IMG/VR virus record: IMGVR_UViG_3300028592_000035
Coordinates: 1 to 42,857 of that record
Source of the DNA: a virus
Direction: 5' to 3' (one strand)
DNA: 42,857 nucleotides
This document shows, one piece after another, positions 6,050-31,727 of this stretch. Within the stretch, counting starts at the first letter, position 1. Each line of letters starts with the position of its first letter. The notes below the pieces were generated by a model. It saw only the letters and a list, made by a program, of their open reading frames with translations. It was not told the origin of the DNA and searched no databases. The translations under genes were made by a program, and so were the position numbers.

Positions 6050-7653
6050 ACGCCATAACCTCCGGCGACGGTGGTGTGATAAACGGACACAAGCTCGATC
6101 TGAGGGGTGTTCGTGCCATTTACTGGAACCTGCACCTCCATGGAGAACACAAGCCCTGTGCGGCCTATGGAAAGCTGCCGGGAGCGCACATTGTATTGTA
6201 CTTCACCCGCGTCCCATTTGGCCGAGTCCCAGAGGCCTGAATCCCAGAGACTGGCGGGGTCAGTATCGGGCAGCGTATTCGGAGAAATCGGGAATTCCTG
6301 CCGATAGTCCGTAGAAGCGCTGAGGCGATAGGCGAATGGCCGCGTGGTGTTCCAGATGGCCTGAGCCTGCTTGATGGATTTGGTCCATCCTGGCGATCCC
6401 AGATGATCCCACGCGAATGCTGCTTGCGCGGTATATGGCATGCCATCATCAGACCCGCCGACCTCTGCAAGCCTCACCGTCCCGTCATTGCATCCGAAAT
6501 ACATCTGGCGGTTATGGATACCGAAACACCGATTGTCCCAACCCGTATAGGTGGAGATGGCCCCAGTCGTGAGGTTTCCAACAATGGTGAGCGTCTCTTG
6601 TCCGTCTATGGCAGGAGTGTTGACATAAAAGGCATCGTTCTCATTCCACTTGGCAATTTCCCAAGGCAAGGATGCGCGAGACTGCGCGGCCTGCTTCCAT
6701 GTAGGTTCGATCTTCTGCGAGATGGCATCCATGCCCAGAGCAGCGGGGTCTTTATACCGCGCCGCTGAAACCGGGACCATGCCCATTTCCGTAGCAATGA
6801 CGATATCGCCACCAGCGCGGAACCATCCATTCTTGCCGAGTGGACGGGCGATGTCATAGACGTTGACCAGGGACCAGTCATCCGCCTCAGGGAATGCGCC
6901 GGAGAATACTGCCGCCTCACCCTCGCTCGACATCACCACAAGATAGGCCTGCATAGAAGCGGCGCCGGATTCACTCGACCACGTGGCAGTAAACTGGATC
7001 ACACCGCCCTTGGTGAATACACCGGAGAGCGACAGCACAGACGCAGCACCGCCGACGCTATCAACCGGAAGATACCAGACATTAAGACTTCCGGATTCCA
7101 CCATGTAGATGCGGTTTCGATAGGCATTGATGTGAATGAGGGTAGAGGTGTCGACGCCGGTAATGGCGATAGGAACGGAAACCCCCGTCACGGCCTGCCA
7201 CGTCAAACCATCGTAAAGCTGGAGAGGGTCGGTGCCATTCACCACAGGCATGCGATTGCCGCCCGTCACCGGGAAATTGATGAAGGAGTAATAATTGCTT
7301 GTCTGCCCCGTCACATCTGGCGCTGGAGGCGTCACTGGATCAACCGGGCTGGTGATGTCATATATGTTCCCGCCCGCACCTGCAAAGATTGCGCTCGCAT
7401 TCCCTCCAACATAGTTCATCAGGCTTTCGACAGGCTCGGTTCCGGTCGTAGCATGCTTACGGTTGCCACCCCGAACCGCCGTTCCTGTGCGTGTTGGAAA
7501 CCAATTGGACAGTACGATTGCGGTGCCGGGCTGCATTGCACCGATGTTCTGAGACGTAACAAGCCCACCAACTGGGGCGGGCAATGCAGGGGTAACGATC
7601 TGGGGGCGCTGCTGGCGTTTGCTTGATGGAGCGATCCTGTTAACAAGGCTCAT
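6046..7653 (-). CDS. Tail needle/plug protein, P22 gp10-like (packaged DNA stabilisation)
   Basis: This is a 535-residue protein starting at ATG 7653 with a 4-base overlap. It is rich in beta-type sequence, with repeated aromatic/Gly turns (IYDITSPVDP, YNYVGG-like, VYHTTVAGGYGV). The start, PALPAPVGGLVTSQNIGAMQPGTAIVLSNWFPTR, is shared by large phage proteins that resemble the P22 gp10 beta-propeller-like tail factor. In P22 that factor seals the portal and holds DNA in the capsid. The gene order portal, scaffold, capsid, adaptor, then this protein supports the role. The gp10 assignment is by resemblance and order, not by an unmistakable motif. Confidence 0.6.
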   Translation of the reverse strand: MSLVNRIAPSSKRQQRPQIVTPALPAPVGGLVTSQNIGAMQPGTAIVLSNWFPTRTGTAVRGGNRKHATTGTEPVESLMNYVGGNASAIFAGAGGNIYDITSPVDPVTPPAPDVTGQTSNYYSFINFPVTGGNRMPVVNGTDPLQLYDGLTWQAVTGVSVPIAITGVDTSTLIHINAYRNRIYMVESGSLNVWYLPVDSVGGAASVLSLSGVFTKGGVIQFTATWSSESGAASMQAYLVVMSSEGEAAVFSGAFPEADDWSLVNVYDIARPLGKNGWFRAGGDIVIATEMGMVPVSAARYKDPAALGMDAISQKIEPTWKQAAQSRASLPWEIAKWNENDAFYVNTPAIDGQETLTIVGNLTTGAISTYTGWDNRCFGIHNRQMYFGCNDGTVRLAEVGGSDDGMPYTAQAAFAWDHLGSPGWTKSIKQAQAIWNTTRPFAYRLSASTDYRQEFPISPNTLPDTDPASLWDSGLWDSAKWDAGEVQYNVRSRQLSIGRTGLVFSMEVQVPVNGTNTPQIELVSVYHTTVAGGYGV

Positions 7654-8327: not shown

Positions 8328-9067
8328 TACTGAGACGCCTCAAGATCAGTGAGCATGCCCACCAGAGTTGCCTTGTTCGGGTTCCCACGCGGCCTTGACC
8401 CTGCAAGTGCTTCGATCTTGTCCTTAAGCTCGGCCTCTTCCATCTCGTAGTATGGATTAACTGGGCTTTGAGGTACGTCATCCACTTCAGCAACGAATGC
8501 AGGGGCCTCTGGCTCGACGTAGGTAATGGGACCGGGGCGGCCGGCCTCAACCATGCGTGTAAGCTCCTCATTGCGCTTCTGTAGAGCCGCAATCTGTTCA
8601 AGGACCTCAGTCATGCCTACCCGGCCTCCAGCCGCCGCGAGGTACTTCTGTGCCGACTGCTTGAGCGCATGCCCCTGAGGGCCAAGGTTCTTGATCCCCT
8701 GCCCTTCAAGGCTGGCGAGGGATTCAATAGTGTACACCGAAAGTGCCTTGAGCGTGGATAGCTGGATAGCGGTCAAGCCCGGAAGGTTCTGGAGCGGAGT
8801 ACCGCTAGCTTCATTTCCGCCCGTTTCCTTGAACTTCTTGTAAGCGTCCGGGAAACGCATGGCATGGGTTATGACTTCGCCGTTCTTTTCCTCATGAAAA
8901 CCATGGGCAAGATCGTGGAAGTTGAAATTACGGTTTGATGCGAAGCGGTATTCGATGCGCTCTTCATCGATAAAGATCGGTCGTCCGGCTTCTCGGGAGG
9001 CAAGAACGTCCTCAACCTGAGCCGTGTAGAAGATAGGCGTCATGCCTGCCTGTGCTGCGGTCTGCAT
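8327..9067 (-). CDS. Structural protein with helix-hairpin-helix-like segment
   Basis: This is a 246-residue protein starting at ATG 9067 behind an AAGGAA site. Residues about 90-145 (PGLTAIQLSTLKALSVYTIESLAS, then GPQGHALKQSAQKYLAAAG) look like a helix-hairpin-helix unit of the kind used to bind DNA or in small phage head proteins. The C terminus holds a coiled-coil stretch (LEQIAALQKRNEELTRMVEAG) and ends with a second small helical motif (LKDKIEALAGSRPRGNPNKATLVGML). It lies directly downstream of a terminator that follows the capsid genes. I do not recognise a named family. A head-completion or packaged-DNA role is plausible. Confidence 0.6.
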   Translation of the reverse strand: MQTAAQAGMTPIFYTAQVEDVLASREAGRPIFIDEERIEYRFASNRNFNFHDLAHGFHEEKNGEVITHAMRFPDAYKKFKETGGNEASGTPLQNLPGLTAIQLSTLKALSVYTIESLASLEGQGIKNLGPQGHALKQSAQKYLAAAGGRVGMTEVLEQIAALQKRNEELTRMVEAGRPGPITYVEPEAPAFVAEVDDVPQSPVNPYYEMEEAELKDKIEALAGSRPRGNPNKATLVGMLTDLEASQ

Positions 9068-9088
9068 TTCAGTTCCTTATGTCTGAGA

Positions 9089-9119
9089 TAAGAGAAAGGG
9101 CCGGAGCGAACCCCGGCCC
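9089..9119 (-). terminator. Intrinsic terminator after the capsid genes
   Basis: Read on the minus strand, GGGCCGG (9119-9113), an 8-base loop and CCGGCCC (9104-9098) are followed by TTTCTCTT. It lies 8 bases beyond the stop of the 110-residue gene and before the next gene of the same operon. It should lower expression of the tail genes relative to capsid. Confidence 0.75.
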
Positions 9120-9126
9120 CAGTGCT

Positions 9127-9459
9127 TTAGGCGGGGGTTGCGTTAAAGGCGCCGCGTCGGACGTGAACCGCTTCGCCAGTCACAATCGCAAGGCCTGGAG
9201 GCGTGTAGAATCCACCTGCGCCGGTCGCAATGGACTTGGTGGCGAAGGTGAGCGTCACTTGGGTGCCAGTGGTTGCAGTGGCGGCGATGTCAGCCGTTGC
9301 CACAACCCAGAAGTATTCGCCGCCATCCACGCCACGAACGACGCTACCAAGCTGGTAGGATGGAACGTTGGCATTTGCGCCGTCATAGAAGGCGTAGGGT
9401 GCGAACTTCTGGGTAAGGTCAGGGCCAAGAGAGGGAGTAATACGGAAAGGATAAGCCAT
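9127..9459 (-). CDS. Putative capsid decoration or head-stabilising protein
   Basis: This is a 110-residue protein starting at ATG 9459, 12 bases after the capsid gene. It is mostly beta-type sequence with Gly/Thr/Ala turns (GAGGFYTPPGLAIVTGEAVHVRRG) and no Cys or membrane span. Phages commonly encode a small decoration protein next to the major capsid protein, and the terminator directly after this gene groups the two for high expression. I do not recognise the family; the role is inferred from place, size and composition. Confidence 0.55.
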   Translation of the reverse strand: MAYPFRITPSLGPDLTQKFAPYAFYDGANANVPSYQLGSVVRGVDGGEYFWVVATADIAATATTGTQVTLTFATKSIATGAGGFYTPPGLAIVTGEAVHVRRGAFNATPA

Positions 9460-9471
9460 TTGATTTTCTCC

Positions 9472-10485
9472 TTACGCAGCCGGATTCGAATCATAGAACC
9501 GGAAGCTGTACTGGGGGTTCCCCAGAACGAACTGGCCTTCCCAGCCGATGAACTGAGCCAGCGCGTCCTGATTGAGCGGCATCTGGCCATCGCCTTCGAA
9601 CAGCCGGTCAAAGCTGAACTCATCGCGGTAGTAGACGAACAGGGAGCGGCTTTCGAGGCCATAGGTGGTATTAGCGGGCATGGACGAACGAATGCCCGAA
9701 GCCAGAACAGCATCAGCACGGCGACCCGAACCAATGAACTCCAGAGCAGAGAAGCCAATAGCGCCAAGACGCGTCTGGTTCACAATGCGCTGGTGAGCAA
9801 CCATCGAAGCCTCAAGAGCGCTGAAATGCTCCTGCGACATGATCAGCAGGTCGGCAGAGCGGTTGCCCTTGGTGCGTCGACCAATGATTTCACGAAGCAT
9901 CGGCTGAATCGTGGTCGAAGTGACCTGAGTGCCGATAGTCGGGAAAGCGGAGTTCGCGTCCCAAGTCGTGGTCTGCCATTCCGGAATGGTGCGGGAGATG
10001 CCACCATACACGCCGGTATTGGTAACGATGGGCAGGGCGGCGCCCAGACCAACCATGTCGCGACCATTGAAGGACGTGCCGTTGCCGTTGATGGCGACTT
10101 CAAGGCCATCGTTCAGCGATTCAGTTGCGGCCTGCACATAAGACCGAATAAGCGGGATCATCCGGTCGCCGGTATTGGCGCGGATTTCTGTGCCGGTGAA
10201 GCTGATCGGGGCGTAAATGGCGCTGGGCTGGAATACAGCGTCATTGAAGAGTTCGATGGGCGGGTTTTCGAGGAAATCATAGCCGGTTGCCCACTGAGTG
10301 CCCTGCTTGGCAAACTGGAGGTGATGACGGATTTCCGGGCCATCAAAGGAGCGATAGTTGCCCTTCTCGCGAACCGTATTGAAAACCACGTTGGAGTTAT
10401 AGACCAGTTCCTCAATGCCAGGCTTGTAATAGGCCAGAGTGGCGCTGAGGGTCTGCTGATATGCGCGAACTGGATTGATCGGCAT
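9472..10485 (-). CDS. Major capsid protein
   Basis: This is a 337-residue protein starting at ATG 10485. It lies immediately after an acidic scaffold-like gene and before a putative decoration protein, the standard position for the shell protein. The sequence has the character of an HK97-fold coat: long N-terminal helix (PVRAYQQTLSATLAYY), an extended beta loop (FDGPEIRHHLQFAKQGTQWA), then a spine-helix-like stretch (DRMIPLIRSYVQAATESLNDGLEVAINGNG) and a C-terminal strand near NPQYSFRFYDSNPAA. The exact coat family is not identified. The call rests mainly on gene order and length. Confidence 0.72.
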   Translation of the reverse strand: MPINPVRAYQQTLSATLAYYKPGIEELVYNSNVVFNTVREKGNYRSFDGPEIRHHLQFAKQGTQWATGYDFLENPPIELFNDAVFQPSAIYAPISFTGTEIRANTGDRMIPLIRSYVQAATESLNDGLEVAINGNGTSFNGRDMVGLGAALPIVTNTGVYGGISRTIPEWQTTTWDANSAFPTIGTQVTSTTIQPMLREIIGRRTKGNRSADLLIMSQEHFSALEASMVAHQRIVNQTRLGAIGFSALEFIGSGRRADAVLASGIRSSMPANTTYGLESRSLFVYYRDEFSFDRLFEGDGQMPLNQDALAQFIGWEGQFVLGNPQYSFRFYDSNPAA

Positions 10486-10508
10486 TTACATTCCCTTAGG
10501 GTTTAGAG

Positions 10509-22779: not shown

Positions 22780-22988
22780 TTTGCCAGTACCTTTATCTCT
22801 GGAATGGGGTAACGCGCCGCAATGGCAATCATCCCCTTCTGCGTCAGTTGAAAGTCCAATGAGGTTTCTGGACCAACATGCCTAATCAGGCCTTCCTCTA
22901 GAGCCCATCCGTAACCAACCTTTTTCACCAGCGGGTAAATCTCAAACCCGCTACCAATGGCTAGAAGTAGGTCCATCCTCTCGCTCAT
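22776..22988 (-). CDS. Small hypothetical protein
   Basis: There are 70 residues from ATG 22988, overlapping the lipoprotein gene by 4 bases. It contains YPLVKKVGYGWALEEGLIRHV, then FQLTQKGMIAIAARY. The latter half resembles the end of a winged-helix fold (xLTxKGxxA), so it may bind DNA, but this is weak. Confidence 0.5.
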   Translation of the reverse strand: MSERMDLLLAIGSGFEIYPLVKKVGYGWALEEGLIRHVGPETSLDFQLTQKGMIAIAARYPIPEIKVLAK

Positions 22989-23296
22989 AGCATTCGGACC
23001 TTCCCGCCCTCACAGACGTAGATCATGTACAAATCGTACAAACACTCCGGTGTCGGAAGTGGCGGCACATACACAGGCTCAGGAACGGCTATAGGCTCTA
23101 TCTCTGCTACTGTGGTAGGTTCTGGTGGTGAAACTGGCTGTACGGGGCTCTCTGTTGATTGTAGGGGCTTTTGAGTAGTGATCGAGGCGCGATATTCATC
23201 CGCTGCTCTCGATGATGCGCCAGGATTGAGGAAATTGCTCAGGTCACACCCTGCTAGTGTTGGTGCGATGGCGAGGGGGAGAAGCAGCCGGATCAT
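22985..23296 (-). CDS. Proline-rich outer-membrane lipoprotein
   Basis: There are 103 residues from ATG 23296. The signal is MIRLLLPLAIAPTLAGC, with lipobox LAGC and the lipidated Cys at 17. A disordered linker and a Pro-rich part (PVQPVSPPEPTT, PEPVYVPPLPTPEC) follow, and three further Cys are near the end. It should be exported and anchored in the outer membrane. Rz1-type outer spanins are small Pro-rich lipoproteins, but those normally sit with the lysis genes. This one is in the early block, so superinfection exclusion is an equal option. Confidence 0.65.
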   Translation of the reverse strand: MIRLLLPLAIAPTLAGCDLSNFLNPGASSRAADEYRASITTQKPLQSTESPVQPVSPPEPTTVAEIEPIAVPEPVYVPPLPTPECLYDLYMIYVCEGGKVRML

Positions 23297-23711
23297 TTAC
23301 GCTCCTCTGCCTTTGCGATAGCAGCGCGGGCTTTCGAGGTGGCGGCATCATAATCGCGAAGCATTTGGGAAAACATGGCGTCTGAAGCGACCGCCATACT
23401 AGGTTGTTTTTTTGGTCCTCTGCTCTTATGACTATGCTGGTTATAGCCACCAAGGAAGCTGTTACATGCTTCAGTGCTTCCAACATCTCAGGAGCGGCAG
23501 CAATCACGCGGCCATTCGCCTCAAAAGGATCATTGCCGTTCTCTCGATGAATTTCATGAAACTCGAACGGGATTGAGCTATCCTTCGCTACAGCCACTAA
23601 GTGTCCAATGACTTCTCCGGGAAGTGGCTGTGTGCGCACGAATCCCCAATCGTCATGCTTTGCTGGCCTGTACGACCACGGACCCGGCGTGTGTTCCGTC
23701 TTCTCAGTCAT
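23293..23711 (-). CDS. Ead/Ea22-like protein, joined by a predicted -1 frameshift
   Basis: ATG 23711 follows AGGAGG. The start EHTPGPWSY and the middle ANGRVIAAAPEMLEALKHV mark the HTPGPW family of early phage proteins. In the starting frame the reading runs on to 23244 with an atypical Pro/Arg tail that lies inside the lipoprotein gene. In the -1 frame the end is ATSKARAAIAKAEERK, the usual family ending, and its stop overlaps the next ATG (ATGA). The switch falls at a run of seven A. The joined protein is 139 residues; the unshifted one is 155. A paralogue at 31452-31727 has the same beginning and the ending AAIRKAEGNE in one frame. Confidence 0.65.
23375..23412 (-). promoter_or_regulatory. 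Candidate programmed -1 frameshift site
   Basis: On the minus strand, A AAA AAC (23412-23406) is in the correct phase: the zero frame reads CAA AAA AAC. Eight bases follow, and then a hairpin ATGGCG (23397-23392), 11-base loop, CGCCAT (23380-23375), or alternatively 5+3 pairs with one bulge. Heptamer, spacing and stem all fit a -1 frameshift signal. A missing A in the assembly would look the same in protein terms. Confidence 0.5.
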
Positions 23712-23742: not shown

Positions 23743-23916
23743 TTATTCGTCGGCGCGTTGCTCATGAATGGCGTGGGACAGAAGGCTGACTTTGCTCCAG
23801 TGTGCACGGATAAACATACGGAGAACCTTGGGATTTACCTGAACGTCCATTTCTCGGCTCATCAGGTCGGCCAGCTTTTCGTGGGCCGATTTATCAACTG
23901 TGTAGCTAGTGCTCAT
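23743..23916 (-). CDS. Small hypothetical helical protein
   Basis: There are 57 codons from ATG 23916 behind AAGGAAGAG, with an ATGA overlap to the Fis-like gene. It is helical (DKSAHEKLADLMSREMDVQ, then NPKVLRMFIRAHW). It is probably co-expressed with the Fis-like protein. No family is recognised. Confidence 0.6.
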   Translation of the reverse strand: MSTSYTVDKSAHEKLADLMSREMDVQVNPKVLRMFIRAHWSKVSLLSHAIHEQRADE

Positions 23917-24158
23917 TTCTCTTCCTTCTCTATGGTGTTTTGTGGGATGGGCTTTGGAGAGGAAGTGTTTGCTTTAATTAGCATCTGAAGCGTTTTCCTA
24001 TGCATCCCAAGCCGTCTCGCAGTTGCTGAAATGTTGCCCTCGTTCAGGGTCAAAACCGCATCAACGTACAGCCATTTTATTTCGTTCGGAGATTTATTGG
24101 CTCTCACGATGTACTCAGAAAGGTTGTCAACCTTTTGGTAAAAAGCCGGATAATCCAT
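23913..24158 (-). CDS. Fis-type helix-turn-helix DNA-binding protein
   Basis: There are 81 residues from ATG 24158, behind GGAGGGAG and a promoter. Residues about 38-66 (LYVDAVLTLNEGNISATARRLGMHRKTLQ) are a Fis-type helix-turn-helix. They are nearly like the C-terminal domain of alphaproteobacterial response regulators of the RegA/ActR type, which lack only the receiver part here. It may regulate phage promoters or bend DNA. An inverted repeat in the promoter just upstream could be its own operator. Confidence 0.72.
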   Translation of the reverse strand: MDYPAFYQKVDNLSEYIVRANKSPNEIKWLYVDAVLTLNEGNISATARRLGMHRKTLQMLIKANTSSPKPIPQNTIEKEEK

Positions 24159-24184
24159 ACACTCCCTCCATGCGTTACATGACC

Positions 24185-24213
24185 ACACTAGCGGTGTTTT
24201 GCCGCACCGTCAA
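24185..24213 (-). promoter_or_regulatory. Predicted promoter with inverted repeat in the spacer
   Basis: On the minus strand, TTGACG (24213-24208) and TAGTGT (24190-24185) are 17 bases apart. The inverted repeat CGGTG-N8-CACCG starts within the -35 and fills most of the spacer. The Fis-like gene starts at 24158. The repeat could be an operator for autoregulation. Confidence 0.6.
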
Positions 24214-31451: not shown

Positions 31452-31727
31452 ATGTATAAGAAAAAACATACGCCGGGACCGTGGCGGGCAATTATGGAAC
31501 CAACGGAATCTGGCGCGGAATTCTGGAGCATCTATGGCGCAAATGGCGAGGCAGTCGAATACATGACCCTTCGAAACGGAGGGGAATTGGAGGCTAACGC
31601 TCGGCTAACGTCTGCCGGTCCAGAACTCCTAGAGGCGCTGAAACTGCTTCTGTCGAGTGCGCACGATTACCAGACCGGAATTGCAGAGGCTGAAGCCGCC
31701 ATCAGAAAGGCTGAAGGAAATGAGTGA
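31452..31727 (+). CDS. Ead/Ea22-like early protein (HTPGPW family)
   Basis: There are 91 residues from ATG 31452 behind GAGGAT; an in-frame reading from 31380 is also open. KKHTPGPW, then NARLTSAGPELLEALK and the end AEAAIRKAEGNE are the family marks. This is a single-frame relative of the frameshifted gene at 23711. The function of this family is unknown. The leader carries TTCCCCAGCC. Confidence 0.72.
   Translation: MYKKKHTPGPWRAIMEPTESGAEFWSIYGANGEAVEYMTLRNGGELEANARLTSAGPELLEALKLLLSSAHDYQTGIAEAEAAIRKAEGNE

Follow-up and report, generated by a model that had tools for sequence, protein, structure and literature searches.

A probable one-base homopolymer indel resembling a programmed −1 frameshift in an HTPGPW-family phage gene

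The window, a 42,857-base stretch of viral DNA, contains an HTPGPW-family (phrog_1273) gene at 23293–23711 on the minus strand whose authentic 139-residue product is obtained only with a −1 change of frame at a run of seven A residues (A7, 23407–23413). Comparison with relatives shows the gene to be exactly one nucleotide short, within or next to this run. An earlier note on this DNA had read the site as a programmed −1 frameshift. We infer instead an error or a recent mutation: this is very probably a single-frame phage gene left one nucleotide short in the A7 run by homopolymer slippage, and not a case of programmed recoding.

Reading frames and the authentic C-terminus

The earlier note left the strand unstated; it is the minus strand, on which the gene begins with an ATG at 23711, with AGGAGG just 5’ of it. 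Codons 100–102 read CAA AAA AAC (23414–23406), which places an A AAA AAC heptamer (23412–23406), overlapping the A7 run, in −1 phase. Eight nucleotides past the heptamer begins a hairpin (23375–23397, minus strand) in which ATGGCG (23397–23392) pairs with CGCCAT (23380–23375). The zero frame continues to 23244, giving an ORF of 155 residues (23244–23711, minus strand), and the −1 frame runs through the tail PSMAVASDAMFSQMLRDYDAATSKARAAIAKAEERK (23293–23403, minus strand) to a TGA at 23295–23293, giving 139 residues. This stop overlaps the ATG (23296–23294) of the downstream gene as ATGA. The phase of the heptamer, the spacing of the stem, both product lengths and the placement of the −1 stop on the next start are thus as first described. 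The downstream gene (22985–23296, minus strand) encodes 103 residues with a lipoprotein-like N-terminus containing LAGC. Its overlap with the −1 frame is 4 nt, a spacing that recurs in the operon around 23293–23711, versus 53 nt with the zero frame. Also on the minus strand, 23913–24188 encodes a small protein that matches the Fis-family helix-turn-helix (PF02954, E = 1.7e-6), beside SSB and primase/helicase genes. Elsewhere in the window, a 484-codon open frame (9052–10506, plus strand) is antisense to a 337-codon frame (9472–10485, minus strand).

Three observations identify the −1 tail as the true C-terminus. First, a codon-usage model built from the window’s own larger genes and applied to the 36 codons past the A run yields log-odds of +14.9 for the −1 frame, whereas the zero frame scores −12.0 and the third frame −37.1. 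Second, the joined protein scores 51.4 bits against the phrog_1273 profile (E = 2.3e-13, residues 2–136 onto profile positions 3–98 of 103), versus 41.4 bits for the 155-residue zero-frame protein. Third, the −1 frame ends in the 4-nt overlap with the downstream gene. On this evidence the −1 tail is clearly coding, beyond chance, and forms the true C-terminus. An HMM of the tail module described below rises from 14.5 bits in the zero frame to about 63 bits once the frames are joined; together with the profile match and codon usage, this gain supports the proposal that the −1 ending is typical of the family. The zero-frame tail past codon 103 was correctly judged to be out of character: it has no match in the PHROG search, and its codon usage is that of non-coding DNA.

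Relatives of the two halves and the missing nucleotide

The correct label for the gene is HTPGPW family, phrog_1273 (HTPGPW...ANARLIAAAPELLEAL...AIAKA), function unknown. With its relatives it shares HTPGPW at the N-terminus and the EANGRVIAAAPEMLEAL block, and with the frames joined also the ARAAIAKAE ending. The Ead/Ea22-like label given previously is rejected, as a Pfam search of the gene, its paralogue at 31452–31727 and five relatives returns no Ead_Ea22 match at E values up to 0.1–1. The two HTPGPW-family paralogues, 23293–23711 (minus strand) and 31452–31727 (plus strand), lie in oppositely oriented gene blocks. Relatives from viral contigs and bacterial genomes amount to 101 loci, and these stay in one frame into AIAKA-type endings, with few exceptions, which are either truncated at the edge of a contig or have a different ending. 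Unlike the relatives read, the window gene needs a one-base shift, and its linker is unusually long.

The tail belongs to a mosaic module. A degenerate DNA search for MFxQMLxDY across viral contigs identifies 25 distinct members, and many phage proteins that are not otherwise related carry the module at their C-terminus or close to it. Its consensus, SLVAAISLLERGGKKAAPSDKMFxQMLxDY...R (function unknown), is shared at 23293–23403, and its carriers are loci L137, L140–L142, L144, L146–L161, L166–L168, L171 and L172; the linker occurs in a short and a long (RAEDxKVKPSK) form. The module of L155 reads VLASLVATTSLIIRAEDMKVKPSKAVASDAMFTQMLKDYDNATIAGREAL, and in L153 the module is followed by RAAIAKAEEVKP, which resembles RAAIAKAEERK in the window. 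KPP25-like Pseudomonas phages encode hypothetical proteins that match the module more weakly, and L173 was rejected as a chance match. A degenerate pattern for the junction helix finds no further fused homologue, and searches of sampled bacterial genomes with the tail or phrog_29865 yield no useful relatives. The window copy differs from the other tails in its attached HTPGPW N-terminus and in being one nucleotide short at A7.

The position of the break was mapped by scoring every possible −1 join with the module HMM and against the four nearest relatives (L155, L159, L147 and L152), which share the longer, RAED-type linker. The HMM gives about 63–65 bits for joins near codons 94–103, and the comparisons with the four relatives reach their maximum at codons 100–101, on the A run, with a tie across codons 98–101 for L152. 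All four alignments cross the junction without gaps, that to L155 over 55 residues. The segment flanked by conserved D and P codons is 11 nt long in the window (CAAAAAAACAA, 23404–23414, minus strand), where the relatives carry four codons (12 nt). The gapless alignments, the scan maximum and the 11 versus 12 nt thus show that the gene lacks exactly one nucleotide, within or next to the A7 run; the scan also bears out the claim that the frames join at this run. At the same site L155 reads GAC ATG AAG GTG AAG CCC and L159 reads GAC CTG AAG GTG AAA CCG, both in a single frame and without the heptamer, as is also the case for L147 and L152. No homopolymer of five or more is present in this region in any of the four.

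Origin of the one-nucleotide difference

A7 is the only homopolymer of at least seven bases in the 42,857-base window, and is therefore the likeliest place to lose a base through a polymerase, sequencing or assembly. The gene would ordinarily be read in a single frame as an HTPGPW-family N-terminus fused to the widespread MFxQMLxDY module, and homopolymer slippage would have removed one nucleotide from the A run, either during sequencing or assembly or through a deletion that the phage itself underwent recently. A base lost from a longer A run preceding C leaves an in-phase A AAA AAC, so the heptamer and the join coincide without selection. No decay is visible in the tail, as would suit an error or a mutation of very recent date, and the restored 4-nt ATGA overlap, common in the operon, favours a one-base loss. 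As a counterpoint, the missing base sits exactly at an in-phase slippery heptamer, as programming also predicts. Error and true mutation have similar odds and are not separable, because the searches of viral contigs and phages returned no second record of the virus: a flanking DNA pattern over the A run finds no near-identical record among the viral contigs, and DNA searches of phages find no close relative. The replication-gene relatives (L003–L033) do not carry this gene.

If the mutation is real, low ribosomal slippage at the run may yield some full-length protein without being programmed. Such chance suppression is documented at slippery runs, one case being an E. coli rpoB frameshift for which a heptanucleotide present by chance gives suppression of about 5% (PMC7022156), and low-level full-length product is therefore possible even with a real deletion. 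As an account of the locus, a real one-base deletion partly compensated in this way, by the ribosome or RNA polymerase on A7, is unlikely. The intact tail and the correction of endosymbiont poly(A) runs by RNA polymerase slippage (PMC5009743) are in its favour; however, the reviewed bacterial RNA polymerase cases involve 9-base A or T runs or long poly(A) (PMC5009743), and a sequencing error explains the intact tail equally well. It is quite unlikely that the site is a recently arisen −1 site, in which the loss from the A run has been tolerated and A AAA AAC with the stem shifts enough ribosomes to produce two C-terminal forms.

A programmed −1 frameshift, in which the stem would stimulate slippage at A AAA AAC and the 139- and 155-residue proteins would be made in a set ratio, is very unlikely. 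Known programmed −1 sites, including dnaX, IS3-family elements and lambda G-GT, have in common an in-phase X XXY YYZ heptamer with a stem downstream of it. The window site has such a heptamer within the overlap of the frames, the join maps to it, and an 8-nt spacer leads to a stem with a 6-bp core of about −10.7 kcal/mol. Haloarchaeal virus HCTV-2 also has A_AAA_AAC as the site of its g-t shift (PMC5009743), and a natural A_AAA_AAC case in an IS family has no established stimulator (PMC4066793). Unlike dnaX, IS3 and lambda G-GT, however, the site is unconserved, its heptamer is weak, its stem is ordinary and its zero-frame tail is non-coding. In E. coli, ribosomes shift far less readily on A_AAA_AAC than on A_AAA_AAG (PMC5009743), and the window genes scanned contain 33 in-phase X XXY YYZ heptamers. 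In L156 (about 7034–7048, plus strand) an in-phase A AAA AAC stands at the start of the module, yet the zero frame continues; the motif alone therefore means little. The 29-nt hairpin has a folding energy of −10.7 kcal/mol and a z-score of −2.6, a value obtained on a stretch picked because it folds, whereas the z-score over the 69 nt past the heptamer is +0.12. When 2175 coding sites of the window were sampled, 3.5% had a local hairpin just as good, and the stem is not beyond chance in its context.

The comparison with relatives weighs most directly against programming. The earlier note had named as refuting evidence relatives that keep one frame without the heptamer, together with a single product; the first half of this holds for the nearest tails, which need no shift. 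Neither the heptamer nor a two-frame layout is conserved in L155, L159, L147 and L152, the about 100 HTPGPW loci stay in one frame, and none of the HTPGPW and tail-module relatives read showed a two-frame layout. With relatives of both halves in a single frame, a stem at chance level and a weak heptamer, the claim of a programmed shift with two products is not supported, and a one-base homopolymer indel of the ordinary kind would look no different. Separate translation of the tail as a 34-residue peptide from an internal ATG at 23397 in the −1 frame is rejected as extremely improbable, since this ATG has no Shine-Dalgarno sequence at a usable distance, versus the AGGAGG before the gene’s own start, and in relatives the module forms the C-terminal portion of a larger protein.

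Homopolymer loss in A7 thus remains the preferred reading, and the case illustrates that a programmed frameshift can be mimicked by a homopolymer indel. Relatives, together with the position of the missing base, tell such an indel from a programmed shift. If the shift is nevertheless real, this gene would be an example of a frameshift site born from a fresh mutation.
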